A stretch of DNA of 48,250 nucleotides from Actinomycetes bacterium (lineage in GTDB: Bacteria; Actinomycetota; Thermoleophilia; Solirubrobacterales; Solirubrobacteraceae): positions 1 to 48,250 of the forward strand of contig JAJZDA010000005.1 of NCBI GenBank assembly GCA_021851525.1, in the 5' to 3' direction. Shown in pieces: positions 12,481 to 26,927 of the stretch (positions within the stretch are counted from its first letter, which is position 1; the number at the start of each line of letters is the position of its first letter). A program made the position numbers and the translations under genes. The notes below the pieces were generated by a model, which saw only the letters and a list, made by a program, of their open reading frames with translations, was not told the DNA's origin and searched no databases.

Positions 12481-12689
12481 AGTCAGATCCTCACAGTGAA
12501 GACGGCGAACATACCATCGCCCGGCCGCCTCGCAACGGGCCGCCTGGCGCCTTTGCCGTTCACTGCTGATCGCGCAAGGGCCGGTCAGGCTGATTGACCG
12601 CGTGGGCGCAGGCACGCAGAGTGACTGCATCGATTTGGCGCAGCCCGACGTGCGCGGCCCGCGCGTGTCCGTGCCCTTGGAGGTTCACC
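12481..12689. promoter_or_regulatory. Divergent promoter region, regulator / deacetylase
   Basis: A 209-base interval between the starts of the divergent LuxR-type regulator and the secreted deacetylase gene. Ribosome binding sites are seen at both ends (GAGG for the regulator, GGAGG for the deacetylase). A TTGACC near 12594 could be a -35 for the plus strand, but no matching -10 is convincing. It must hold both promoters and probably the operator. Confidence 0.5.
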
Positions 12690-15600
12690 ATGTTCAGCAT
12701 CCGTCGTGCCGGTGGTGGTTGGCAAAGCGCGCGGGAGCGCACGCGCAGGCGCGCCCGGCGCCCGGCCCTGACGGTCCTCAGTGCGCTGCTGGCGCTCGGT
12801 GTCGCGCTGCTGGCGGGCGCACCCGCGCGGGCCGCTGGCGTCGTGCCCCCACGGATCGAGCTGGAGGTGCTCCTGCTGGGCACCTCCAGCACCCAGTCAG
12901 ACCTCCAGGACTGGCAGGCGGCGCTCACGCGCGAGGGCATCCCGTACCGGGAGATCCTGACCGCGGGCGTGCACACGCCGATCACCTCCGCGACGCTCTC
13001 CGGCACGACCGCAGACGGCACGCGGGTCGGGCACTACGAGGCGGTGATCGTCGCCAACCAGGGCCTGCTCACATGCTCATCCGGCCCGTGCGTGTCGACG
13101 CTCACGCAGCCGGAGTGGGACGCCATCGAGCAGTACGAACGTGACTTCTCCGTGCGTCAGATCACCGGCGATGTCAGCCCCGGTTCCAACAGCACCCCGG
13201 GCCCGGTCTACGGCACGGGCATGAACGCGCCGGTCTACAGCGGCACGCTCGACGGCGTGCCGGCCTCGCTGACCAGCGCCGGGCAGGCGGTCTTCTCCTA
13301 CCTGCAGCCCACGGCGCCGATCACCTTCGGTGTTGTCGGCGCCGCCACGCCCGGCTCCACCACCTGGGGGCACGAGGCCACGCCGCTGAGCACGACCAGC
13401 TTCAACACGCTGCTCGCGGGACCGGGCGGCACCGCGTTTGTCGGCGTCTACACGCACCCCGACGGTGTTCAGGAGCTCGAGCAGACCTACGCCTCCAACC
13501 AGTACCTGCTGCAGGACCAGCTGCTGCGCCACGGTGAGCTCGTGTGGGTGACACGCGGCGTGTATCTCGGGGACCAGCGCAACTACTCTGAGACGGAGAT
13601 TGACGACACGATGATCGGGGACGACGTCTGGGACCCCATCACCCATCAGGTCGACACCAACCCGGCCGACGCCGTCCAGGAGTCGGCGTCTGACCTGACC
13701 TACGCCGCGCAGTGGTCGCTGGCCAACCACTTCCGCATCGACATGGTCTTCAACGGCTCCGGCGGGGCCGGCTCGACCAACGGCCCGAGCCTGCTGACGC
13801 AGCTGCAGGCGATCAACCCCCAGACGGCCAGGCCATACCTCGACTCTTTCGGCTGGGTCAACCACACCTGGGATCACCCCAACATCGATCAGGGGTGCGC
13901 CAGCTCCGACTACATCCAGGCGGAGGTCAACCAGAACACCAACTGGGCAACCACCACGCTCGGGTTGAGCACGGGCACCGGTGCACTCGGCCAGATCGAC
14001 CCGACGGTGCTCGTCACCGGTGAGCACTCGGGACTCGCCAACCTCGTGCCCGGCACGCCGGGAACCGTCGATCCACCGCTGATCTCAGAGCTCACGCCGG
14101 GCCATGGGTCGCTCCCGGCCGGCACCTACACGTACGCCGTCAGTGATCAGTTTAGCGCCACCGGGGGTGAGTCGACCGCATCCAGTGCCCAGATCACGCT
14201 GAGCTCACCCGGTGCGGTGACGCTCAGCTGGGACGCTGTCTGCCACGCCGCGGACTACAGGGTGTATAGGCAGGACAACGCGACCGGAGTCTGGACGCTG
14301 CTGTCGACCGTCAACGCGACGGCGGCTGACTTCGGCCCAACCACCGGCTCCACCACCGATGTGACCGGGCAGGGAGCGCAGCCACTCGCCTTCACGGACA
14401 CCGGCACCGTCACTGGCACACCGTCATCCGGCCCGCCGGCCGGCAACACGGCCACCGAGATCCCGTACCAGCAGAACCTCAACTTCGCGGGGGCGCTGGC
14501 GGCGCTGGGGATCACCGCGTTTGGCGCCGACGCCTCCAAGCCGTACCCCAGCCCGGCGGACGCCACAGCCGGCTTTGGCGGCACGACCTTCACTGGCGCG
14601 AGTGTCCCCGCCGGCTCGACCTTCCAGCAGCCGGGCACCGGCAGCTGGGCGGTGCCGCGCTATCCGACGAACATCTATTACAACGCGGCCACTCAGGCGC
14701 AGGAGCTCGATGAGTTCAACACCATCTACTTCACGTCGCCCGCGGCTGACTTCAGCGCCGTCGTGGACAATGTCGTCAACTTCGGTGCCGGCTCGATGTT
14801 CGCGCACCTGATGGGCAACGATCCGCGTCCCAGTTACTTCCATCAGAGCAACCTGGTGGGGGGACCGGCGGCGCTCTACTACTCCGTGATGGCAAGGCTG
14901 CTGGAGGAGTACTACAGCTACTTCAACGTGCCGGTGGCCCAGCCGACGCTCGGGGAGAGCGCCGCGCTGCTGCGTGAGCAGGCCAGCTGGGCGGCTGACC
15001 AGGCGGCGGCCTCTCCGACCGTCGGCGCCTACATCCAGGGCTCGACGGTGACGGTGACCAACTCCGGGAGCACCGTGGCGATGGTGCCGCTCACCGGGAT
15101 CCCGGGCCTTGGCAGTGCCTACGGCAGCACCGCCTCCGGTTGGGTGGCGGCCCCGGCGACGGGGACCGCCGCGAGCTATGCGGCTGCCACGAGCTGGCCC
15201 CCGGCGCGGGTGATCGGGCTGACGCTCTCACCGGCGAGCGTGACCGCCGACGGGCAGTCCGCCAGCACCGCGACGGTCACGTTGAGCAGCGGTGACGGCT
15301 TCCCGATCAGTGGCGAGCCGCCGGCTCTCAGTGCCTCTGATCCGGCGGTGGTGATCGGTCCGGTGACTGACGCCGGCGACGGCAGCTACACGGCGTCAAT
15401 CACCTCATCCACGAACCTCGGGCCGGTGATGATCAGTGCTTCCGATCCGCTGCTCGGCGATGGCGTGGCGGCGGCAGCGGCGACGCTCACCCAGGTTGCG
15501 GGCAGCGCCGCGAACATGACGCTCACGCTCTCCGGCGCGACGCTGGCGGCCGATGGCAGCTCGGGACTGATCGCCACCGCCCGGGTCAGTGACGGCGCCG

Positions 15601-16649
15601 GTCACGCTCTGGGCGCGCAGCAGGTCAGCTTTGCGACCAGCGATCCGGGTGTCAGGCTCGGGCCCGTGGTTGACAACGGGGATGGGAGTTACAGCGTCGC
15701 GCTGACCGCCTCTGGAACCGCCGGCCTGGTGACTGTGACCGCCACCGACAGCTCCGTGAGCCCGGCGCTCAGCGCGCAGGCGAGCTTCAGCCAGACCGCA
15801 CTGCCGGGTGAGACCGTCACCCCGGACCAGCCTGGCGCGCCGGGTACGACCGTCACCCCGGACCAGCCCGGTGGACCGGGTACGACCGTCACCCCGGACC
15901 AGCCCGGTGGACCGGGTACGACGGTGACGCCCGGGCAGCCCGGCGTGGTCCTGCGCAGCCCTGTGGTGGGCACCGGCAGCGGCCCCCTGTCGCTGAGCGG
16001 CGGCAGGGTGACCGTGAGGCTCAGCTGCCCGGCCGCGCAGAGCGGCTGCAGCGGAACGCTGACGCTCACGCTGACCGGCAGCAGGCCGGCATCGACGCTG
16101 GCCAGCGCACACTTCGATATCCCCGGAGGGACCTCACGGAGCGTGGTGCTGAGGCTCTCGGCGGCAGCGCTCAGGCGCGTCGGCAACGCCGCGTCGACAC
16201 GCGTGCAGCTGACCGCCCGGGCGGTGAATCCGGCCGGTGTCAGCGGTGTGAGCAGCCGCGCCACCACGTTGCGGCAGGCGCTTGACCGTGTCCGCCCACG
16301 CGTGGCGATCGGGGCTGGGCCGCTGAAGCTCAGCGCCGGGCGGATCGCTGTGACGCTGAGCTGCCCGACAGACCAGAGTCGCTGCGAAGGGACGGCCACG
16401 CTGCGGCAGGTCGGGTTGTCCCGTGAGCTGCCGCTGCTGGCGACCAGGTCCTACAGGATCGACGGTGGCCACGGGCTCGTGCTCACGCTGAGCCCGTCAC
16501 GGGCCGTCCTGGCGGCGGCCGCGGGACGCCACTCGCTGAACGTGCAGGTTCGCGTCAGCGCCCGCAACCGCAGGGGGCTCAGGGCGACCAGCACGCGCAC
16601 GTTGCAACTGCAACTCAGCGGCGGCGCGGGCGCCGCAGCAGCCAGGTAG
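12690..16649 (+). CDS. Large secreted Agd3/CE18-like polysaccharide deacetylase
   Basis: A 1319-residue exported protein. ATG 12690 has GGAGG six bases upstream and begins a long signal peptide (cleavage near APARAAG, residue ~49). The N-terminal ~850 residues resemble the Agd3-type (CE18) deacetylase that removes acetyl groups from GalNAc in fungal galactosaminogalactan: an early sandwich domain, then motif 1 EIDDTMIGDD (Asp305/306) and motif 2 NHTWDH (His392, His396; H-x3-H metal ligands). A fibronectin-like insert (about 455-580, TYTYAVSDQFS and YRVYRQDNATG) interrupts the deacetylase. Then come two Big-type immunoglobulin-like repeats (from ~845), a Pro/Gly repeat linker and two Cys-containing beta repeats (LSCPAAQSGCSG; LSCPTDQSRCEG). 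It is probably surface-bound. Family assignment is by motif recognition only. Confidence 0.78.
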   Translation: MFSIRRAGGGWQSARERTRRRARRPALTVLSALLALGVALLAGAPARAAGVVPPRIELEVLLLGTSSTQSDLQDWQAALTREGIPYREILTAGVHTPITSATLSGTTADGTRVGHYEAVIVANQGLLTCSSGPCVSTLTQPEWDAIEQYERDFSVRQITGDVSPGSNSTPGPVYGTGMNAPVYSGTLDGVPASLTSAGQAVFSYLQPTAPITFGVVGAATPGSTTWGHEATPLSTTSFNTLLAGPGGTAFVGVYTHPDGVQELEQTYASNQYLLQDQLLRHGELVWVTRGVYLGDQRNYSETEIDDTMIGDDVWDPITHQVDTNPADAVQESASDLTYAAQWSLANHFRIDMVFNGSGGAGSTNGPSLLTQLQAINPQTARPYLDSFGWVNHTWDHPNIDQGCASSDYIQAEVNQNTNWATTTLGLSTGTGALGQIDPTVLVTGEHSGLANLVPGTPGTVDPPLISELTPGHGSLPAGTYTYAVSDQFSATGGESTASSAQITLSSPGAVTLSWDAVCHAADYRVYRQDNATGVWTLLSTVNATAADFGPTTGSTTDVTGQGAQPLAFTDTGTVTGTPSSGPPAGNTATEIPYQQNLNFAGALAALGITAFGADASKPYPSPADATAGFGGTTFTGASVPAGSTFQQPGTGSWAVPRYPTNIYYNAATQAQELDEFNTIYFTSPAADFSAVVDNVVNFGAGSMFAHLMGNDPRPSYFHQSNLVGGPAALYYSVMARLLEEYYSYFNVPVAQPTLGESAALLREQASWAADQAAASPTVGAYIQGSTVTVTNSGSTVAMVPLTGIPGLGSAYGSTASGWVAAPATGTAASYAAATSWPPARVIGLTLSPASVTADGQSASTATVTLSSGDGFPISGEPPALSASDPAVVIGPVTDAGDGSYTASITSSTNLGPVMISASDPLLGDGVAAAAATLTQVAGSAANMTLTLSGATLAADGSSGLIATARVSDGAGHALGAQQVSFATSDPGVRLGPVVDNGDGSYSVALTASGTAGLVTVTATDSSVSPALSAQASFSQTALPGETVTPDQPGAPGTTVTPDQPGGPGTTVTPDQPGGPGTTVTPGQPGVVLRSPVVGTGSGPLSLSGGRVTVRLSCPAAQSGCSGTLTLTLTGSRPASTLASAHFDIPGGTSRSVVLRLSAAALRRVGNAASTRVQLTARAVNPAGVSGVSSRATTLRQALDRVRPRVAIGAGPLKLSAGRIAVTLSCPTDQSRCEGTATLRQVGLSRELPLLATRSYRIDGGHGLVLTLSPSRAVLAAAAGRHSLNVQVRVSARNRRGLRATSTRTLQLQLSGGAGAAAAR
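15813..15944 (+). repeat. 36-bp tandem repeat (3.7 copies) encoding TVTPDQPGGPGT
   Basis: Near-identical 36-base units start at 15813, 15849 and 15885, with a partial fourth from 15921. Each encodes a 12-residue TVTPDQPGGPGT unit. They form a flexible linker between the Big-type domains and the C-terminal Cys repeats of the deacetylase. High nucleotide identity points to recent expansion. Confidence 0.9.
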
Positions 16650-16689
16650 GTGTGCGGGGTGCGGACCTCAGCACCCCTGGCTGCTGCGG
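16633..16689. terminator. 14-bp inverted repeat shared by two convergent gene ends
   Basis: CCGCAGCAGCCAGG (16633-16646) pairs perfectly with CCTGGCTGCTGCGG (16676-16689) around a 29-base centre. The left arm encodes the last residues of the deacetylase; the right arm lies in the 3' end of the opposite small HAD-like fragment. It could act as a bidirectional terminator. Confidence 0.55.
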
Positions 16690-16844
16690 GGCCTGCGCCG
16701 CTGACGCCGCGGGGCGATCGCCAGCAGACGCTCGGCCACGCCGGGGATCCAGACGCCGTCGGTGTCGTACGCGGCGCTCTGATCCAGCAGCAGGTGACTG
16801 GCGTCGAGATGGCCCCAGCCCGGGATGTCGACTCTCAGCGGCAC
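16668..16844 (-). pseudogene. N-terminal fragment resembling HAD/soluble P-type ATPase-like phosphatase
   Basis: A 58-residue frame starting at GTG 16844, preceded by GAGAGGAG. Its sequence VPLRVDIPGWGHLDASHLLLD, followed by ..DGVWIPGVAERLLAIA, matches the opening of the soluble P-type-ATPase-like HAD family, whose members read roughly IPG.G.L...HLVLD.NGT.A.DG.L..GV.ERL. The catalytic DxNGT is absent (DQSAA here), and the protein stops after about 45 homologous residues with an Arg-rich tail. I read it as a decayed remnant, though the intact ribosome binding site means it could be a short expressed protein. It is divergent from the Ehr operon. Assignment is from memory of the family pattern. 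Confidence 0.4.
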
Positions 16845-17193
16845 GGCTCTCCTCTCCCTCATGAACATGGAGTAGAGGCCATCAGCGGCGTGCCGCGGTC
16901 GGAGCGAGCCTCATCGCTCGCGCCTCAGGGTAGCTCCGCGGCGACTCGCTGGCAACCGCACGCGCGGCTCCGCGCGGGCGCCGCGCGGCGGGATGACGGG
17001 TCCGGCGCGCAGCCGCGGCGTGCCGCCAACCAACGATTGACCGGAAAGTGACTTGCAACGCGATGGCTTTTGGATAATCTGAGCTCAGACCAGATGAGGT
17101 CCTGGTGGGCGGCAGCGCCGTCCGAACCGCCCGGCAACGGGCTAATGGCTTCTTTCGAGCAACCGCACGACGCCCGAAGGGAGCCTGTTTCCA
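16845..17193. promoter_or_regulatory. Intergenic region upstream of the Ehr operon
   Basis: About 350 bases with no supportable gene. The only AT-richer patch is 17049-17080, where TGACTT (17049) and GATAAT (17073) are separated by 18 bases, a reasonable sigma-70-type promoter for the operon starting at 17194. The leader would be about 110 bases. No riboswitch was recognised. Confidence 0.4.
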
Positions 17194-18828
17194 GTGCCCG
17201 ATCTGTCCAGCTGGCTTGTTCAGGTCCTTCAGGTCCTCACGGTGCTGGCTTTCGCACCGTTGATCAGCGGTGTGATCGCGCGGCTGGAGGCGGTGATCCA
17301 GCAGCGTCGTGGACCACGCCTGCTGCAGCCCTACTACGACATCGCCAAGCTGCTGGGCAAGGAGACGGTGCTCCCGGCACCGGCCGGGCCGCTCTTCCGT
17401 GCGGCGCCGTACGTCAGCTTCGCCGGGTACGCCACCGTACCGCTCCTGATTCCGGTGCTCACCAGCTACGGGCTGCCGCTCGGCTACATGGGGGACATCC
17501 TCGGTGGCGGCCTGATCCTGGGGATGGCCGGCTTCGCGATCTCAATCGCCGCGATCGACAGCGGCAGCCCCTACGCACAGCTCGGTTCCAGCCGCCTACG
17601 GTCGTTCGGGGCGCTGAACGAGCCGACTGTGATCTTCGTTGTGTTCGTGGTGGCGCTCACCACACACACCGACCTGCCCTACGTGATGGGCGCGACGCTG
17701 CGGGCATCGGCTGTCCAGGTGGTCAGGCCCAGCCACCTGCTGATCATCGCTGCGTTCTTCATGCTGATCCTCAACGAGACGGGGCGCATCCCGGTCGGCA
17801 GCCACGGCGGCACGCTCGAGTTCGGCCAGATCGAGGAGGGTCGTGTGGTCGAGCACTCGGGCCCCGGCCTGGCGTTCCTGCGCTGGGGCTCATCGGTCAA
17901 GCAGCTGGTGCTCTACACGATCTTCGCCAACGTGCTGGTCGCGCCCTGGGGGCTGGCAGCGCCGCCCGGCAGGCTCGGCGACGTGCTGCTGGCGGTCGCC
18001 CTGCTGGTGCTCAAGGCGCTGGCGATCGGGCTGGCGGTGGTGGTCGTGGAGTCGAGCTTCGCGAAGCTGCGGCTCTACAAGATCCCGGAGTTCACCGTCG
18101 CGAGCTTCATGTTCGCCGTGCTGGGCGTGGTGATCTTCCTCTTCCAGCCCGGGTTCGGTGACCTGCGCCTCACCGTCTTCGGGGCGGCCGCGACCGTCGC
18201 GGCCGTGGTGGTGCTGCTGCTGGAGCTGGGCATGCTGCGCTCCCAGGACGTATGGGAGCAGCTCAGCCTCTACTCGGCGGGCTCGCTGTTCGTGGCCGGA
18301 CTGGCCATCGCCACAGCCGCGAGCACGTCGGGCAACGGCTCCCTCTACGTCCTCGGCGCGGTCACGGTGGCGCTCAAGGCGCTGCTCTTCCCGGCCGGCA
18401 TCCGCTTCGTGCTGCGCCGCCTGGACGCGGATCCACGGGTGCCGTCGACGATCGGCGTGGCCAGCTCGATCCTGATCGCGGTGGTGCTCTGCGGGCTGGC
18501 GTTCGTGGTGATGCGCCCGATCCACATCGGCGCCGTGGCGGCACTGCCGCTCTCCGCGCTGCCGGTGGCCGTGGGCGGCGTGCTCGTCGCGCTGCTGCTG
18601 ATGGTGGTGCGTCCGCACGCGCCCTCACAGCTGCTGGGCTTCCTGCTGGTGGAGAACGCGGTCTCGGTCGCCTCGCTGGTGATCGCTCCGGGGCTGCCGA
18701 TCATCCTCGCGCTGCTGCTGCTCTTCGACGTGCTGGTGGGTGTGCTGGTGTTCATCGTGCTGGTCCAGTATCTGGCTATCGAGCGCACCGCGGTGCGCAC
18801 CGACATCCTCGACAGGCTGGCCGGATGA
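17194..18828 (+). CDS. Fused HyfC-HyfE-like membrane subunit of Ehr complex
   Basis: A 544-residue membrane protein that joins two normally separate subunits. Residues 1 to ~310 are HyfC/HycD/NuoH-like: RLEAVIQQRRGPRLLQPYYD near 29-48, and ETGRIPVGSHGGTLEFGQIE around 195-214 followed by VEHSGPG, the acidic loop that faces the quinone/redox module in complex I. Residues ~320-544 are HyfE-like, with the signature LLGFLLVENAVSVASLVI near 478-496 and LLFDVLVGVLV after it. In hydrogenase-4 and in the M. tuberculosis Rv0082-0087-type locus these are separate genes. There is no stop or internal start at the junction (near 18150). GTG start with GAAGGGAG about 11 bases upstream; first gene of the operon. 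Confidence 0.85.
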   Translation: MPDLSSWLVQVLQVLTVLAFAPLISGVIARLEAVIQQRRGPRLLQPYYDIAKLLGKETVLPAPAGPLFRAAPYVSFAGYATVPLLIPVLTSYGLPLGYMGDILGGGLILGMAGFAISIAAIDSGSPYAQLGSSRLRSFGALNEPTVIFVVFVVALTTHTDLPYVMGATLRASAVQVVRPSHLLIIAAFFMLILNETGRIPVGSHGGTLEFGQIEEGRVVEHSGPGLAFLRWGSSVKQLVLYTIFANVLVAPWGLAAPPGRLGDVLLAVALLVLKALAIGLAVVVVESSFAKLRLYKIPEFTVASFMFAVLGVVIFLFQPGFGDLRLTVFGAAATVAAVVVLLLELGMLRSQDVWEQLSLYSAGSLFVAGLAIATAASTSGNGSLYVLGAVTVALKALLFPAGIRFVLRRLDADPRVPSTIGVASSILIAVVLCGLAFVVMRPIHIGAVAALPLSALPVAVGGVLVALLLMVVRPHAPSQLLGFLLVENAVSVASLVIAPGLPIILALLLLFDVLVGVLVFIVLVQYLAIERTAVRTDILDRLAG

Positions 18829-18841
18829 GCGGAGCGCACAG

Positions 18842-20314
18842 ATGAGCTGGCTGCCTGTGGCACTGCTGGCCGTGCCGCTGGTGGCGGCACTGGCGAGCCT
18901 GGCCGACGGTTGGCGGCTGGCGCGCGCGGCCACCGCCGTCGGCGGTCTGGTCGCGCTCGCCCTGTCGGTCGCGCTGGCGCTGACGGTCGCCCACGGCCGC
19001 ACGCTCCAGGCGCTGCACGGATGGCTGCGGCTCGACTCGCTGGGCGCCGTGTTCCTGCTGGCCACAGGGCTGCTCTACGCCGCGGCCGGGGTCTTCTCGA
19101 TCGGATACCTGCAGGCGGAGCAGCGCAGCGAGGGCTTCTCGAGTTTCGCGCGGCGCTACTGCGCGCTGCTGAACCTGTTTGGCTGGACGATGCTGCTGGT
19201 GCCGCTGACCGCTGACTTCGGGACGCTCTGGGTCGCGGTCGAGCTGACCACGATCGTGTCCGCGTTGCTGGTCGCGATCGACCGCACCGACGCGGCGCTC
19301 GAGGCCTCCTGGAAGTACGTGCTGATCGCCTCCAGCGGCCTGGGGATCGCGCTGCTCTCGATCATCGTGCTCTACGCGACCGGCACGCACGCACTGGGTG
19401 GCGCCTACATCCCACGCTTCGTGCGGGTGCTGGCGCACGCCCACGCCTACTCGCGCGACGCGGTGCGGCTCGCGTTCGTGCTGGCCGTGATCGGGTTCGG
19501 CACGAAGGTCGGCTTCGTGCCGATGCACACCTGGCTGCCGGACGCCCACAGTGAGGCGCCGGCGCCGGTCTCCGCGATGCTCTCCGGCTCGCTGCTCTCG
19601 GCGGCGCTCTACGCGATCCTGCGCTTCTTCCAGGTCGCGGTGGTGGCCGGGCAGCGGGGCTTCGCGGAGCACGTGCTGATCGTCTTCGGCGTGATCTCAC
19701 TGCTGGCCGCGAGCCTCTTCGTGCTGCGCCAGACCAACTACAAGCGGCTGCTCGCATACTCCTCGATCGAGCACATGGGCGTGATCGCCCTGGGGGTCGG
19801 CTTCGGGGCACCGCTGGCGGTCGCGGGCGCGCTGCTGCACGTGCTCACCCACGCCTCCGCCAAGGGCCTGGCGTTCCTCGGCGCCGGATCGGTGCTGCGC
19901 GGCTACGACACCAAGACGATCGACGAGGTCAGGGGCGCCGGGGCGCTGATGCCATGGACCGGGCCGATGTTCCTGGCGGCCGCGCTGGCGCTCTGCGGCC
20001 TGCCGCTCTCAGGCGTCTTTCGCAGCGAGTTTCAGATCGTCGCGGGCGGGTTTGCGCAGGGTCAGTACGTCGGCGTCGCGCTGCTGATCGTGTTCGTCAA
20101 CATCGCCTTCTTCGGGATCGTCTGGCACGCCGGGCGGATGGTGCTCGGCGCCGCCACGCGTGAGGCGGGGGAGGTGGGCGAACGCAGCCGCTTCATCACC
20201 GCGGCGATGCTCGGCTGCCTGGTGGTGGTGGTGGCGCTCGGCGTGCACGTCCCCGGTGAGCTCACGAGCCTCCTGCACAACGCGAACCTGCGGCTGGAGT
20301 ACCCGCGCACATGA
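18842..20314 (+). CDS. hyfF: HyfF-like proton-channel membrane subunit
   Basis: A 490-residue NuoL/M/N-type antiporter-like subunit with about 14 membrane segments. ATG 18842 has GGAG seven bases upstream and lies 13 bases after the previous stop; a longer frame would start inside the upstream gene. The conserved proton-pathway residues are present: Glu134 in VAVELTTIVSALL and Lys222 in GTKVGFVPMHTWLPDAHSEAP. YKRLLAYSSIEHMG and HASAKGLAFLGAG are also typical of HyfF/HycQ. Length matches HycQ-type proteins. It should be able to translocate protons or ions if the complex can be driven. Confidence 0.9.
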   Translation: MSWLPVALLAVPLVAALASLADGWRLARAATAVGGLVALALSVALALTVAHGRTLQALHGWLRLDSLGAVFLLATGLLYAAAGVFSIGYLQAEQRSEGFSSFARRYCALLNLFGWTMLLVPLTADFGTLWVAVELTTIVSALLVAIDRTDAALEASWKYVLIASSGLGIALLSIIVLYATGTHALGGAYIPRFVRVLAHAHAYSRDAVRLAFVLAVIGFGTKVGFVPMHTWLPDAHSEAPAPVSAMLSGSLLSAALYAILRFFQVAVVAGQRGFAEHVLIVFGVISLLAASLFVLRQTNYKRLLAYSSIEHMGVIALGVGFGAPLAVAGALLHVLTHASAKGLAFLGAGSVLRGYDTKTIDEVRGAGALMPWTGPMFLAAALALCGLPLSGVFRSEFQIVAGGFAQGQYVGVALLIVFVNIAFFGIVWHAGRMVLGAATREAGEVGERSRFITAAMLGCLVVVVALGVHVPGELTSLLHNANLRLEYPRT

Positions 20315-21822
20315 GCGGCCCCGTGAACCCCGCGCCCGACCGTGCCACGCCCGCGCCGGCGGGCGGCCTGCCTGGGCAGCTTGACGCGCCGCTGCTGCCC
20401 TCGCCGGCCCAGGAGTTGCGGCTCGCGGTCGGCGCCGGCCAGCTGGCCGGCGCCGCGGTCCTGCTGCAGGCGCAGGGGGCGCGCTTCATCACGCTGCTGC
20501 TGGCGCAGACACCGGCGCCCGCGCTCCAGGCCGTGTTCGCGCTGGGCGGTGAGCTCGTGGTGCTGCGCGCCTCAGCCGACGGTGAGCCGCTGCGCTACCC
20601 GGCAATCAGCGCCGTCATACCCGCCGCCCGCTGGGCGGAGCGGGAGCTGGCGGAGCGCACCGGGGTGCAGCCGCAGGGCCTTGCCCCGGGGGTGGCGCTG
20701 ACCACGCCAGAAGCGGACCTGCTCGACAGCACGCTTGACGGTCCCGACGTGTTCACGCTGCCGTTCGGACCGGTGCGCTCCGGTGTCTTTGAGGCGATCC
20801 AGTTCATGATCGAGACCGGCGGCGAGGATGTCCCGAGGATCCGCACCCGCCCGTTCTTCAAGCACCGCGGCCTGGAGCAGCGCTTCAGCGGGATGACCCC
20901 GGAGGCGGGGGTGCACGTGGCCGAGCGGATCGCCGGGATCGCAGGCGTTGCACACGCCTGCGCCTTCTGCCAGGCGGTCGAGCGGGCGCTCGGGGTCGGT
21001 GTGCCGCCGGCCGCCGAGCGCTGGCGCGTGCTCCACGCTGAGCTGGAGCGCATCGCCTGCCACCTCGATGTGATCGCCAAGCAGGCGCAGACCACCGCCC
21101 TGAGCGTCGGGCACGCGCGCTTTCAGATCCTCAAGGAGTCGATCATGCGCCTGCGGGTGCAGCTCAGCGGCAGCCGCTTCGGGCGCGGCGTGCTGGTGCC
21201 CGGTGGGGTGCGCGCCGCGGGCGCCCTGCCACTCGCCCGGCTGCGCGCCGCACTGGACAGCTTCGAGCAGGAGCTGCGCCACGATGAACGCCTGTTCCGC
21301 GGGACCGCGTCGATGAGCGACCGCCTGATCGGGGCGGGGCGGCTCTCACGTGAGCTGCTCGAGCAGCTCGGAGCCGTCGGGCCGTTGGCACGCGGCTCCG
21401 GGCTCTCGGTCGACGCCCGCCATGAGCGGCCCCACGGTGAGTACAGCCGCCTCGGCCTGCGTGTGATCACCGCGCACGGCGGCGACGCGATGGCCCGCGT
21501 CGACGTGCGCCTGCGTGAGATCGGTGAGTCGCTGCGGATCCTGCGCCAGGTCACGGATCGTCTCGCGGACGACGGCACGGAGTTGCTCGCGCCGCTTCCC
21601 TCAGGGGCATCGGGCGATGCCTTCGGCTGGGTTGAGGCCCCGCAGGGGGAGGTCGTGACCTGGGTGCAGGTCCGCGACGGGAAGCTCGCGCGCGTGCACG
21701 TGGCCTCACCCTCGCTGCGCAACTGGGCGATCTTCGACCACGCCTTCCCGCGGGATGTGCTCACCGACTTTGCGTTCATCGAGCACAGCTTCGGGTTGAC
21801 CGCCGCGGGGGCCGATCGCTGA
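20311..21822 (+). CDS. hyfG: HyfG/HycE-like large subunit lacking the full NiFe motif
   Basis: A 503-residue NuoC-NuoD fusion as in HycE. The N-terminal ~130 residues are NuoC-like (YPAISAVIPAARWAERELAER), the rest NuoD-like (RTRPFFKHRGLEQRF, LERIACHLDVIAKQ). [NiFe] hydrogenases need two Cys pairs. The first is present as Cys217-AF-Cys220, but the C-terminal DPCxxC is missing: the end reads LTDFAFIEHSFGLTAAGADR with no Cys. NiFe binding is therefore not possible in the usual way, which marks it as an energy-converting hydrogenase-related (Ehr) protein rather than a hydrogenase. It starts four bases inside the hyfF stop (ATGA overlap). No hydrogenase maturation genes are in the window, which agrees. 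Confidence 0.88.
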   Translation: MSGPVNPAPDRATPAPAGGLPGQLDAPLLPSPAQELRLAVGAGQLAGAAVLLQAQGARFITLLLAQTPAPALQAVFALGGELVVLRASADGEPLRYPAISAVIPAARWAERELAERTGVQPQGLAPGVALTTPEADLLDSTLDGPDVFTLPFGPVRSGVFEAIQFMIETGGEDVPRIRTRPFFKHRGLEQRFSGMTPEAGVHVAERIAGIAGVAHACAFCQAVERALGVGVPPAAERWRVLHAELERIACHLDVIAKQAQTTALSVGHARFQILKESIMRLRVQLSGSRFGRGVLVPGGVRAAGALPLARLRAALDSFEQELRHDERLFRGTASMSDRLIGAGRLSRELLEQLGAVGPLARGSGLSVDARHERPHGEYSRLGLRVITAHGGDAMARVDVRLREIGESLRILRQVTDRLADDGTELLAPLPSGASGDAFGWVEAPQGEVVTWVQVRDGKLARVHVASPSLRNWAIFDHAFPRDVLTDFAFIEHSFGLTAAGADR

Positions 21823-22646
21823 TGCTCGCCTGGATCCCCCGCGGCCTCTCCAGGGGGCGAGTGACCACCGCCTACCCGCGGACTCCCGAGTCCCCGCCGG
21901 AGGGCTTTCAGGGGCCGCTCGTGGTGCTCGAGCCGGGGCGCGGCCCGGCTGAGCTGCAACAGCTGTGCCCGACGGGGGCGATCACCGTCGCAGACGACGG
22001 CACGATCGCGCTTGACCGCGGGCGCTGCATCCTCTGCGGGGCGTGCGTGCGTGCGCAGCCGCGGCGCTTCGCGTTCAGCCGCAGCTTTGAGTCGGCGGTC
22101 TCCCGCCGTGCCGAGCTGATCCAGCGCTCGGGGGCCGGGGTCGGCGGCTCATCAGCGGCGCTGCCCGAGGACGGGATCCCCCGCGACGCTCAGCTGCGCC
22201 GCGCCCGCGCGGCGCTCGGGCAGCAGGCGCGGGCGCTGCGCCGCTCAATCCACGTGCGCCACATCGACACCGGCTCCGATGGCTGCGAGGAGTGGGAGAT
22301 CGAGGCGCTCTGGAACCCGTACTACGACATTGCGCGGCTCGGCTTCCAGCTGACCTCCGCGCCACGTCATGCCGACATCCTGATGGCCAGCGGCGGTGTG
22401 ACGGCGCCGATGCGTGAGCCGCTGCTGCGCACCTGGGAGCTGATGCCCGAGCCCAAGGCGCTGATCGCCGTCGGCACCGACGCCTGCTCCGGCGGGCTGG
22501 CGGCGCCCGGCGGCCTGGTCGCCGGGGGAATAGATCAGGTGCTGCCCGTCGACGTCTACGTTCCCGGCTCCCCGCCGGCGCCGATCGCCCTGATCGACGC
22601 GCTGCTGCTGGCCGTCGGCCGGCTGCGGGCGGAGGTTCGGGGATGA
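21822..22646 (+). CDS. Fused ferredoxin-NuoB-like small subunit with lost cluster ligands
   Basis: A 274-residue fusion of a HyfH-like ferredoxin part and a HyfI/NuoB-like small subunit. The N-terminal part can bind one [4Fe-4S] cluster through Cys49 (LCPTG) and Cys69-x2-Cys72-x2-Cys75; the second cluster of a normal 2x4Fe ferredoxin is gone (CVRAQP instead of CxxxCP). In the NuoB part the usual GSCNGCEIE reads GSDGCEEWE; aligned without gaps, both cluster Cys are replaced (Asp153, Glu156) and Cys155 is out of register. Cys222 (GTDACSGG) remains, but the GCPP Cys is Ser250 (VPGSPP). The proximal cluster is thus very unlikely. NPYYDIARLGF and PRHADILMASGGV confirm the family. TGATG overlap with the gene before. 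Confidence 0.85.
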   Translation: MLAWIPRGLSRGRVTTAYPRTPESPPEGFQGPLVVLEPGRGPAELQQLCPTGAITVADDGTIALDRGRCILCGACVRAQPRRFAFSRSFESAVSRRAELIQRSGAGVGGSSAALPEDGIPRDAQLRRARAALGQQARALRRSIHVRHIDTGSDGCEEWEIEALWNPYYDIARLGFQLTSAPRHADILMASGGVTAPMREPLLRTWELMPEPKALIAVGTDACSGGLAAPGGLVAGGIDQVLPVDVYVPGSPPAPIALIDALLLAVGRLRAEVRG

Positions 22647-24646
22647 GTGCCATGCTGGCGATCGGCTACGCCGCGCTGGCGGTCGCGCCCTTGCTGGGCA
22701 TCGCCGGGCGGCGGGGCGCACGCGGCCGCGGGCCGCTGCTGGTGAGGGCTGTGGCGATGAGCTCGGTGCTCGGTTGTCTGCTGCTGCTGATTGCCGGCAT
22801 CGCCGCCGTGACCGGCGGCGCGCGACCGCGGGTGGAGCTCGGCGGCTGGCTGGGCTTCGGTCACAGCGCGCTGCGTGTTGACGGCGTCGCCGGGATCTTC
22901 CTGGCCCTCACCGGGCTCACCGGGGCGGCCACCGCGCTGGCCTACGCCGAGCTCGAGTGGAGCGCCTGGCTGACCTCGCTCGGCGCGCTGGCGCTGCTCT
23001 GCGTGGCGCTCTTCATCGGCGCTGACAACGCCTTCCTGATGCTGCTCGCGTGGGAGGCGCTGAACGTCTGCATCTACCTGCTGACGGGCAGCGGCAAGGC
23101 TGACCCCGCGGAGCTGCTCGGGGGGTATTTCGCGTCGGGACTGACGAAGCTCGGCGGTGCGGCGCTGCTGGCCGCCATCGGGCTGCTCTACGCGCACACG
23201 CACAGCTTCGCGCTAGCCGTCTGGGCGCACGCCCAGCTTGGCGGTGGCACGCGGGGGGTGGCGTTCCTGCTGTTCCTGCTCGCGTTCGGCTCCAAGGTCG
23301 GGTTGCTGCCGCTGCAGGGGGCGCTGCCCGCCGGCTACGCGGCGGCCACGCGCGTCGGCGCGGCGGCGCTCTCGGTGGCGCTCAGCGCCGGCTTCTACGG
23401 GCTCTGGCGCTTTGAGGTGCTGACGCTCAGCCCGCTGCCGGGCTGGTGCGGGGAGACGCTCCTGGTGCTCGGCGCGCTGAGCGCCATCACCGGCATCGTC
23501 TACGCGACCATGCAGGACGGCCTGCGGGAGTTCCTCGGCTACTCAACGGTTGAGCACGCCGGGATCGTGCTGCTCGGACTCGGGGTGGCGCTGCTCGGCC
23601 TCTCCGCTCACGATCGCATGCTCGCCGCCGCGGGGCTGCTGGCGGCGACGCTGCACGTCTGCGCGCACAACCTTGCCAAGACGCTCGCGCTGATCGGCGT
23701 CGCCCGCCTGGAGCTCGCCACCGGCGAGCGGACGCTCGCGCCGCTCGGCGGGCTTGGGCGGGTGCTGCCGCTGACCTGTGCCGGGGTCGGGATCGCCTCG
23801 CTGACGCTCGGCGCGATCCCGCCGCTGGGTGGCTTCGTGAGTGAGTGGTTCACCTTCGAGGCGCTCCTGCAGGGCTTCCTCATGCCGACGCTGCTCGCGC
23901 AGCTGCTCTGCGCGCTGGCCGCCGCGGCGCTGGCGTTCACCGCCGGGATCGGTCTGCTGGCCTTCGCCAAGTACTTCGGCTTCAGCTTCCTGGGACCGCC
24001 GCGCGCTCACGCCGCGGTGGCCAGCGCGCGTGCCCGGGCGGCCCACGCGCGCTGGCCACCGAGCCTGCTGGCGCTGGGGGTTGTCGTGGCGCTGCTGGGC
24101 GCCGCCGCGCCATGGGAGATCCGCGGTCTGGCGCACGGGCTCCAGCAGGCGCTCGGCTTCAACGCGGCGGGCAGCACGATCTCATCGCCGTTGGTGCTCG
24201 GTCCCGTGTTCCCGGGGTTCGCGGTGCTCGCTCCAACCTGGCTGCTGCTGGTGCTGGCGGCCTTCGCGCTGCTCGCGGCGACCGCCGGCAGATGGGTGGG
24301 CGGACACCGCGGGGTGCGCCGCGCGCCGGTCTGGGTGACCGGCAGCGACGCCGAGCCGGCGCGCGTCCAGTACCGGCCCTCCGCCTACTCCAACCCGCTG
24401 CGCGTGGTGCTGAGGGGGCCGCTCGGCTTCCGCACGCGCCTGCTGGCGCGTGACGACGGCTCAGCCACGCTCGAGACCTCCGTGGTCAACGCGGCCGAGC
24501 GCTTCCTCTACCGGCCGCTGACGCGCGCGCTGCTGCGCGCCAGCGGCGCCGTCCGGCGCCTGCAGTCGGGACGCCTCTCGGCCTACCTGCTCTACCTGTT
24601 ACTCGCCCTCCTGGCCGCTCTGGCCCTGATCCCCATCCTGCACTGA
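22643..24646 (+). CDS. hyfB: HyfB-like proton-channel membrane subunit
   Basis: A 667-residue NuoL-like subunit with about 16 membrane segments, the size of HyfB and of the Rv0083-type protein. Glu138 (LLAWEALNVCIYLL) and Lys218 (FGSKVGLLPLQGALP) match the conserved proton-pathway pair; FLGYSTVEHAGI and HNLAKTLALIGVA are family features. The C-terminal ~90 residues form a soluble stretch (YRPSAYSNPLRVVLRG) and then one last membrane segment. It starts four bases inside the preceding gene (ATGA). With the fused first subunit and HyfF it completes the membrane arm; all pumping residues that I can check are kept, unlike the redox arm. Confidence 0.9.
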   Translation: MSAMLAIGYAALAVAPLLGIAGRRGARGRGPLLVRAVAMSSVLGCLLLLIAGIAAVTGGARPRVELGGWLGFGHSALRVDGVAGIFLALTGLTGAATALAYAELEWSAWLTSLGALALLCVALFIGADNAFLMLLAWEALNVCIYLLTGSGKADPAELLGGYFASGLTKLGGAALLAAIGLLYAHTHSFALAVWAHAQLGGGTRGVAFLLFLLAFGSKVGLLPLQGALPAGYAAATRVGAAALSVALSAGFYGLWRFEVLTLSPLPGWCGETLLVLGALSAITGIVYATMQDGLREFLGYSTVEHAGIVLLGLGVALLGLSAHDRMLAAAGLLAATLHVCAHNLAKTLALIGVARLELATGERTLAPLGGLGRVLPLTCAGVGIASLTLGAIPPLGGFVSEWFTFEALLQGFLMPTLLAQLLCALAAAALAFTAGIGLLAFAKYFGFSFLGPPRAHAAVASARARAAHARWPPSLLALGVVVALLGAAAPWEIRGLAHGLQQALGFNAAGSTISSPLVLGPVFPGFAVLAPTWLLLVLAAFALLAATAGRWVGGHRGVRRAPVWVTGSDAEPARVQYRPSAYSNPLRVVLRGPLGFRTRLLARDDGSATLETSVVNAAERFLYRPLTRALLRASGAVRRLQSGRLSAYLLYLLLALLAALALIPILH

Positions 24647-25080
24647 TGTTTCAGAGAATCATGCTCGCCTGGGACGGATCCGACGTGGCGCTTGACGCGT
24701 TTGACGTCGCGATTGACCTGGGCCGTCGATACGCGGCTGAGCTGGTGGCCGTCTCGGTCGCCTACTCACCAGCTCACGCCGAGACCCGGGCCGACCGTCT
24801 GGAGTCCGCAGACGCCGCCCGCCGCCACCTCGAGCAGAGCTTCGCGCTGGTCGCAGATCGCGCCCGGCGTGCCGGGGTGGAGGTGCGCCACCAGATCGTG
24901 GCCGCCACCAACCCGGCGCAGGCGCTGCTGGCCCACGCCCACGAGCACGGCTTCGACCTGATCGTCTGCGGGCATCACCGCAGCAGACGTGCGGGGCGCA
25001 TGCTGCTGCACGACGTGGCGGAGGACCTGTACCGCAACGCCGCCACGCCGGTGCTGATCGTCGGTGAGCGCAGCCGCTGA
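24646..25080 (+). CDS. Universal stress protein (UspA family)
   Basis: A 144-residue single-domain Usp with the N-terminal ILAWDGS-type strand (RIMLAWDGSDVALDA), FDLIVCGHHRS and ATPVLIVGERS. The nucleotide-binding consensus G-x2-G-x9-G-S/T is altered (GHHRSRRAGRMLLHDVAEDL), so ATP binding is doubtful. The ATG overlaps the hyfB stop (TGATG), so the protein is made with the Ehr complex and may regulate or sense its state. Usp genes are often tied to hypoxia or energy stress in actinobacteria, but no DosR-type box was recognised upstream. Confidence 0.9.
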   Translation: MFQRIMLAWDGSDVALDAFDVAIDLGRRYAAELVAVSVAYSPAHAETRADRLESADAARRHLEQSFALVADRARRAGVEVRHQIVAATNPAQALLAHAHEHGFDLIVCGHHRSRRAGRMLLHDVAEDLYRNAATPVLIVGERSR

Positions 25081-26460
<1,380 letters not shown>

Positions 26461-26480: not shown

Positions 26481-26927
26481 ATGCCACTGGAGGGTGAGTA
26501 CGCGCCGCCGGATCCGGCGGACTGGGTTCGCGAGCAGATCGAGGCCTGGGAGCGCTCCGGTGGCACGCAGGGCACGACGCTGCGCGACACCGGCCTGCCG
26601 GTGGTGATCGTCGTCAACCGCGGCGTGCGCAGCGGCAAGCTGCGCCGCACCCCGCTGATGCGCGTGGAGCACGACGGCAGTTACCTGGCGGTCGGCTCCA
26701 GGGGCGGCGCTCCCAGGGACCCCGCCTGGGTTGCGAACCTTCGCGCGGACCCGCACGTTGAGGTCTGGGACGGGCCGCAGCGCACCGACCACCTCGCGCG
26801 GGAGCTGGCCGGTGATGAGCGCGAGCTGTGGTGGGAGCGCGCCGTCGCAGCGTTCCCCAACTACGCCGAGTACCAGCAGCGCACAGAGCGCCTGATCCCG
26901 GTGTTCTTGCTCGAGCCGCTGGCCTGA
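26481..26927 (+). CDS. DUF385/F420-dependent nitroreductase-family protein
   Basis: A 148-residue member of the deazaflavin(F420)-dependent nitroreductase (Ddn/DUF385) family, small split-barrel proteins that use reduced F420. Visible features are GLPVVIVVNRGVRSGKLRRTPLMRVEHDG (shown in parts: GKLRRTPLMRV is the conserved loop), YLAVGSRGGAPRDPAWVANL and FPNYAEYQQRTERLIPVFLL. The length is standard. The substrate is unknown. It follows enolase by 20 bases but probably has its own leaderless promoter. Its presence hints that the host makes F420. Confidence 0.88.
   Translation: MPLEGEYAPPDPADWVREQIEAWERSGGTQGTTLRDTGLPVVIVVNRGVRSGKLRRTPLMRVEHDGSYLAVGSRGGAPRDPAWVANLRADPHVEVWDGPQRTDHLARELAGDERELWWERAVAAFPNYAEYQQRTERLIPVFLLEPLA

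Follow-up and report, generated by a model that had tools for sequence, protein, structure and literature searches.

Genes and RNA elements of the locus

The window, by which we mean the whole stretch of 48,250 nucleotides that was analysed, carries an operon of six open reading frames on its + strand (17194-25080), which is preceded by a leader RNA and followed by an enolase gene:

16866..16927, - strand: second, divergent fluoride-riboswitch-like element (model R1 51.4 bits; model R2, built without this element, 59.3 bits)
17081..17161, + strand: predicted variant fluoride riboswitch aptamer (RF01734 20.4 bits, R2 28.4 bits, pair counts)
17147-17157/17175-17185, + strand: predicted helix that covers the ribosome-binding site of the first gene (about 17177-17183) and overlaps the pseudoknot strand
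17194..18828, + strand: HyfC-HyfE fusion (544 aa, GTG start; NADHdh and a weak hydrogenase-4 membrane-subunit match)
18842..20314, + strand: HyfF, antiporter-like subunit (490 aa; Proton_antipo_M)
20311..21822, + strand: HyfG, large subunit without NiFe ligands (503 aa; Complex1_49kDa and NiFeSe_Hases)
21822..22646, + strand: ferredoxin-HyfI, small subunit (274 aa; Fer4 and Oxidored_q6)
22643..24646, + strand: HyfB, antiporter-like with an ND3-like C-terminus (667 aa; Proton_antipo_M)
24646..25080, + strand: universal stress protein, Usp (144 aa; Pfam Usp)
25171..26460, + strand: enolase (Pfam Enolase_N and Enolase_C; starts 90 bp after Usp)

The six-gene layout with ATGA and TGATG couplings, as described in the first-pass annotation, is borne out by the coordinates and by the junctions: a 13-bp gap separates HyfC-HyfE from HyfF, ATGA joins HyfF to HyfG and HyfI to HyfB, and TGATG joins HyfG to HyfI and HyfB to Usp. 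Enolase is perhaps part of the same transcript. HyfF and HyfB have hydrogenase 4 subunits F and B as their best family matches (Pfam, NCBIfam), and subunits of the E. coli formate hydrogenlyase are the closest solved structures for HyfG, HyfI, HyfC, and HyfB, the four that were compared. Structure prediction of HyfG and HyfI was discarded, as it was based on two-row alignments (the window and the relative L004) and reached a mean pLDDT of 36. Upstream of the operon, the + strand at 12594-16649 encodes a large protein, probably secreted, in which Agd3-type carbohydrate-binding and deacetylase matches occur together with Ig-like domains.

Relatives and position in the Ehr family

Loci of the window's type, termed type A, occur in nine of the 28 genomes of the genus, and a contig search gave one further orthologue on a contig labelled Pseudonocardiales. 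In wider, evenly drawn samples of 399 genomes of the class and 396 of the phylum, for nearly all of which three candidates per listed genome were scored, nothing outside the genus reached type A level. The lowest type A score, from a partial gene, was 657 bits, compared to 361-399 bits for the next best matches.

A quick tree was built from 47 large subunits, 44 of them different. In it, the nine type A rows form a group (SH-aLRT support 100) nested in a set of 16 rows (98), which in turn is nested in a set of 23 rows (99) that we call branch X. Outside branch X are hydrogenase-like loci and other loci of the energy-converting hydrogenase-related (Ehr) type; the latter form, together with branch X, a 35-row set (SH-aLRT 94, with unresolved forks) apart from the hydrogenase-like rows. 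Contig C235 of the window's own genome carries one such hydrogenase-like group 4 complex (L024), in which both CxxC pairs and four Cys of the proximal cluster are present, and this genome has one HypC-family match.

The first-pass annotation had pointed to the M. tuberculosis-type locus as a relative. Three actinobacterial loci (L101-L103) with the gene order of M. tuberculosis Rv0082-Rv0087 (PMC6901956) were available for comparison, and they sit in another Ehr branch. They keep the E-channel Glu discussed below and have no riboswitch above control level, and the small subunits of two of them, the two that were read, keep the proximal-cluster Cys. Close kinship was rejected on the grounds of the different branch in the large-subunit tree and of their retained E-channel Glu.

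Loss of metal ligands in the hydrophilic arm

Alignment to E. coli HycE confirmed that the large subunit lacks the C-terminal Cys pair of the NiFe site, as had been noted before, and it demonstrated that the N-terminal pair is missing too: RVCGICG of HycE aligns with RIAGIAG of HyfG, and DPCYSC with GLTAAG. None of the four Cys ligands that mark a group 4 [NiFe] hydrogenase is present in HyfG. The ACAFC motif of the window's HyfG was considered as an intact N-terminal pair and rejected, as it lies off the ligand position and both its Cys vary in the eight type A rows. In these rows, HyfG has no invariant Cys column, and the canopy Arg (EAPRG) is replaced by Gln in all eight. In the alignment to HycE, the His of the beta1-beta2 loop is replaced by Arg156, and the canopy Asp is retained. 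None of the branch X large subunits whose motifs were read had NiFe ligands.

In the small subunit, the first proximal-cluster ligand is replaced by Asp across type A, the second is Cys, Ser, or Ala, the third is Asp or Glu, and the fourth is Ser. The window still has a Cys at the second position (C155), but this column varies. The earlier statement that most proximal ligands are missing thus holds and can be extended, as none of the four is conserved in type A, and the ligand set of complex I cluster N2 is also absent. In the 16-row set, the proximal ligands are disturbed or lost wherever the small subunit was seen. The missing Cys have not moved to shifted positions: apart from the ferredoxin motif described next, the only invariant Cys of HyfI is C222, which is displaced two places past the ligand position. 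Judged from these alignments, it is almost certain that the complex would hold neither a NiFe site nor a proximal cluster. With both gone, no electrons should get to the old active site or be used there.

What is left is one ferredoxin motif, formed by C49 and C69/C72/C75, which suffices for a single [4Fe-4S] cluster and is present in seven of eight type A rows. The previous estimate of at most one such cluster is therefore correct for the window, and one relative, G024, has none. Its small-subunit gene, in frame and flanked by HyfG and HyfB, encodes no ferredoxin domain; since G024 is a single draft assembly of about 110 contigs, and the contig of its sister G017 stops before the small-subunit gene, this loss needs confirmation.

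Related observations were made at other loci. An Ehr locus outside branch X (L105, G082 contig C24) has also lost the proximal ligands (STNACE, GDDA, PGDPP), apparently independently of branch X, and has an intact E-channel Glu and no riboswitch. Contig C8 of G183 (L095) carries two complete Ehr operons in tandem, one of which keeps the proximal-cluster Cys, whereas in the other they are replaced (SDG/PGDPP), and this second operon has a clear fluoride riboswitch. Contig C24 of G020 (L121/L134) carries a second small-subunit fragment of type A, and fluoride-riboswitch-like elements lie about 8 kb from it.

Pairwise dN/dS values were determined for the pairs G011/G020 and G024/G017. They were 0.13-0.20 for the membrane subunits, 0.22-0.34 for HyfG, and 0.30 for ferredoxin-HyfI, as compared to 0.16-0.17 for the hydrogenase-like HyfG and HyfI of G011/G020. 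The stripped arm is thus constrained, somewhat less than the arm of the hydrogenase-like complex. A pseudogene was considered and rejected in view of the intact frames and these values, and the presence in nine of 28 genomes together with dN/dS of 0.13-0.34 indicates that the stripped locus is no product of chance.

The membrane arm

The Glu/Lys pairs that had been highlighted in the window's antiporter-like subunits are conserved: E138/K218 of HyfB is present in all eight type A rows with letters there, and E134/K222 of HyfF in all nine. Of the charged residues characteristic of the channels, E134, K222, H333, H337, K341, and E396 (among others) of HyfF and the HyfB residues E138, K218, H338, K346, and E401 are invariant in type A and common to the hydrogenase-like rows. 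In the reverse check, we searched for columns with a charge that is common to at least 90% of the hydrogenase-like rows and absent from type A, and found one in HyfF and eleven in HyfB. The HyfB losses include the Lys of TMH8 (Lys in HycC, S248 in the window) and two His of the TMH7-8 region (Q225 and Y232 in the window), all three common to 9-10 of the 10 hydrogenase-like rows. With these eleven shared charged columns lost, HyfB is remodelled, and the assumption of intact proton channels can be maintained for HyfF, with its one lost position, but not fully for HyfB. MrpA/D-type channel residues are present in HyfF and partly lost in HyfB. In formate hydrogenlyase, HycC mutants at the equivalent Lys239 and His222 had unchanged hydrogen production (PMC9474812).

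In HyfC, the E-channel position corresponding to HycD E130 is Leu, Ala, Ser, or Thr in all 16 branch X rows with letters there, as opposed to Glu or Asp in all 16 other rows besides HycD. R108 and the acidic residue at 199 are lost in branch X and also elsewhere: among the other Ehr rows, the Arg is missing in four of six and the acid in six of six. E138, E189 (Glu or Asp), E203, and E206 (once Asp) are retained in branch X.

The complex could also still be a redox-driven pump, now induced by fluoride: electrons from the ferredoxin cluster would go to a new acceptor that occupies the emptied pocket, namely quinone, flavin, or F420. The ferredoxin motif in seven of eight type A rows would be odd if redox chemistry no longer mattered, the hydrophilic subunits are under purifying selection, and the inner acidic residues of the E-channel are retained. 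A gene of the F420H2-dependent quinone reductase family follows just after enolase (26481-26927, + strand), though none turned up beside the relatives. Nevertheless, there is no relay from the ferredoxin cluster to the pocket, the E-channel entry and the beta1-beta2 loop His are lost, and G024 manages without a ferredoxin domain, so that we regard a redox-driven pump as rather unlikely. Redox independence is somewhat favoured. The ligand losses, G024 as a natural version without the ferredoxin domain, the kept Glu/Lys pairs and HyfF residues, the non-acidic E-channel position, and purifying selection speak for the redox-independent transporter proposed below.

A probable variant fluoride riboswitch in the leader

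The leader upstream of HyfC-HyfE matches the fluoride riboswitch family RF01734 with 20.4 bits (E 0.0016 within 301 bases) and does not reach the Rfam gathering cut-off of 34. One reason for the low score is that P1 is changed to CCAG/CUGG from GGCG/CGCC; in addition, the leader differs from the family by an insert before P2 and by a platform that hides the ribosome-binding site. The defining elements of the aptamer can all be drawn with the conserved loop letters, namely P1 (17090-17093/17102-17105), P2 (17129-17132/17139-17142), and the pseudoknot (17096-17099/17149-17152). The leader has a better fold than most shuffled versions of it (z -2.25, five of 200 as good), but the minimum-energy fold, computed without ligand, pairs the P1 region otherwise than drawn. 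In five type A leaders, a helix of 10-12 bp is possible between the tail of the aptamer and the first gene's ribosome-binding site. As one pseudoknot strand is part of this site-hiding helix, a translational ON switch is the natural reading: fluoride would bind the leader RNA, and the pseudoknot would pull 17149-17152 out of the helix, permitting translation of the operon, as suggested by sequence and covariation.

Comparison with other elements supports the aptamer. In 15 elements, which are not independent because several come from one genome, P1, P2, and the pseudoknot were 99.4% paired with two-sided changes in eight of 12 pairs, while slid controls reached 38-59%. At the Rfam gathering score, fluoride riboswitches were detected in eight of 20 loci of branch X relatives and in none of 17 control loci. 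These switches lie directly before the Ehr operon in L095 (operon L095b), L098, L099, and L108, before a dynamin-like gene followed by the Ehr genes in L104, and before other genes in L036, L038, and L042.

Two further models were built, R1, which includes five type A leaders (among them those of L041 and L042), and R2, which consists of ten elements that pass Rfam and contains no type A leader. R2 recognized the leaders of the window (28.4 bits, E 8e-7), L038 (34.8 bits), and L040 (22.9 bits), with 19.5 bits as the best score among 20 control loci. At E 0.01, it missed the leaders of L041, L042 (5175-5280), and L096, the last being outside type A. R1 does match all three, which is circular for L041 and L042, as their leaders are in the model, and L096 is not in R1. 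With R1, 15 of 19 branch X operons had a switch that scored 26.5 bits or more and lay no further than about 350 bp upstream, on the operon's own strand. In three others (L104, L139, L140), a dynamin-like gene stands directly behind the riboswitch and ahead of the Ehr genes, and the remaining one (L095a) had a match of only 16.7 bits that was not counted, since matches in the 20 control loci reach, and do not exceed, 20.6 bits. The 19 operons are those with their 5' end on the contig, without the fragments L004, L033, L034, L039, L043, L044, and L045, and three of them (L098, L108, L142) belong to the same genus.

It could still be argued that the leader is no fluoride switch, or a dead one, and that the complex has another task related to hypoxia, pH, or H2. 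The score below the Rfam cut-off and the three leaders missed by R2 agree with such a view. We consider it very improbable in light of the covariation in P1 and the pseudoknot, the R2 matches to the leaders of the window, L038, and L040, and the clear Rfam matches directly before the sister operons L095b, L098, L099, and L108. A link of the operon to fluoride is very likely. The first-pass annotation, which had proposed hypoxia or pH stress as conditions for testing a deletion, had missed the riboswitch and the fluoride-resistance neighbours; because of these two, the likely physiology shifts from hypoxia to fluoride stress.

The second element at 16866-16927 scores below the Rfam gathering score and faces away from the operon. 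It precedes a 66-aa ORF without Pfam match (16668-16927, - strand), which presumably resembles the cut start of a HAD-type phosphatase. With 150 of 4035 candidates scored, the window's own genome has two such switches, both in the window, divergent and about 150 bp apart, and the single-contig genome G011 has one, located before the Ehr operon. In L099 (G501 contig C39), with two HyfB genes in tandem and the start of a Usp gene at the contig end, there are three strong fluoride riboswitches, one of them before a sulfatase-family gene region.

Fluoride-resistance genes in the neighbourhood

Usp is part of the operon in all six type A relatives that reach the operon's end. Downstream of Usp, L040 has two CrcB genes and DUF190, L041 has DUF190, and L043 has CrcB. 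Enolase, a classic target of fluoride, lies beside three type A loci, and in L041 and L042 it is located upstream of the operon. Other genes with a switch at branch X loci encode CrcB (L104), a Na+/H+ exchanger (L036), MutS-like proteins (L036, L038), and dynamin-like proteins (L104, L139, L140). With crcB, the Na+/H+ exchanger, mutS-like genes, usp, and enolase in regulons or neighbourhoods, and with the P1, P2, and pseudoknot of the aptamer, the locus resembles the known fluoride riboswitch regulon (crcB motif, RF01734).

The conserved Usp could mean that the complex is a non-transporting membrane sensor or scaffold that acts through Usp. This is hardly likely, as the channel residues of HyfF and the Glu/Lys pair of HyfB are conserved, and as uspA and eno are also found in an ordinary fluoride-resistance operon, that of E. 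cloacae, which contains no complex of this kind (PMC5533749). The previously raised idea of a sensor is without support for the protein, and the leader RNA is the likely sensor.

The boldest form of a non-redox reading is that the complex moves fluoride itself, with the membrane arm or the remodelled HyfC cavity exporting F- coupled to H+. Control by a fluoride switch, the less acidic E-channel entry, and the exchange of the loop His to Arg would fit. We know of no member of the superfamily that carries anions, and CrcB channels exist both in the window's own genome (two) and beside relatives, making fluoride export by the complex quite unlikely.

A proposed fluoride-inducible ion transporter

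As the metal centres are lost, the channels are mostly kept, and a fluoride-sensing RNA lies upstream, the operon probably encodes an ion transporter for fluoride stress and no hydrogenase. The full proposal, in which an Ehr complex gave rise to a fluoride-inducible ion transporter that is independent of redox chemistry, is plausible, if short of probable. HyfB, HyfF, HyfC, and HyfE would form the complex-I-type membrane arm, and HyfG with HyfI would now act as a cap with a structural or regulatory role. When HF enters, the cytoplasm becomes more acidic, and among the classes of riboswitch-linked genes, Na+/H+ antiporters rank second in frequency, after exporters (PMC11139923). With antiporter-type channels and no usable redox chain, the complex fits this task: driven by the proton-motive force, the membrane arm could exchange H+ for a cation and so offset the acidification. 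This exchange is the least certain step and can only be suggested tentatively. The channel losses in HyfB and the absence of the small Mrp partner genes from the operon count against a transporter. That redox status is open and ion transport possible had been proposed before, and our data support both, transport being a sensible assumption.

The comparison with known systems places the complex as follows. It is an Ehr complex by its subunit set (large and small subunits of the group 4 type together with antiporter-like subunits in the membrane), by the absence of NiFe CxxC motifs, and by its grouping with Ehr away from hydrogenases. The ligand losses in HyfG and HyfI support the initial impression that it is stripped further than usual: compared to other Ehr complexes, the ligands of the proximal cluster and the Glu at the E-channel entry are missing as well, the operon has a fluoride riboswitch, and HyfC and HyfE are fused. 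It differs from E. coli formate hydrogenlyase (HycC-G) and hydrogenase 4 in having neither a NiFe site nor a proximal cluster, in having one cluster instead of two in the HycF-like domain, and in that the operon contains no formate dehydrogenase gene. With Mrp-type Na+/H+ antiporters it shares antiporter subunits of one family, but it has HyfC and a hydrophilic arm, and none of the small partners MrpB, E, F, and G is among the six operon genes.

A fluoride riboswitch motif before formate hydrogen lyase genes was reported in 2010 (PMC2864571) and mentioned again later (PMC8004769), and Ehr complexes have been described as lacking NiFe motifs, with unknown function. In the full-text literature that was searched, we found no paper that connects these riboswitch-controlled genes with redox-stripped Ehr complexes. 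What seems new here, novelty not being proven, is that the genes behind fluoride switches encode redox-stripped Ehr complexes, whereas the link between switch and formate hydrogen lyase is already in print. The passages on this link do not explain how a hydrogenase would be of use under fluoride stress. The genes studied here encode no hydrogenases: the NiFe ligands are lost throughout branch X, and the inner part of the branch has also lost the proximal cluster, while much of the channel machinery is kept.

The fluoride link provides a concrete and testable physiology for the unexplained Ehr class. The complex may be a member of the complex I superfamily that has both arms and is no longer a redox enzyme, with a fluoride-switched, pmf-driven transporter whose emptied arm acts as gate or anchor, an idea that we put forward with reserve. 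Finally, the natural series that ends in G024, which has no iron-sulphur motif, poses the question of whether electron transfer is needed at all for a complex-I-type membrane arm to function.
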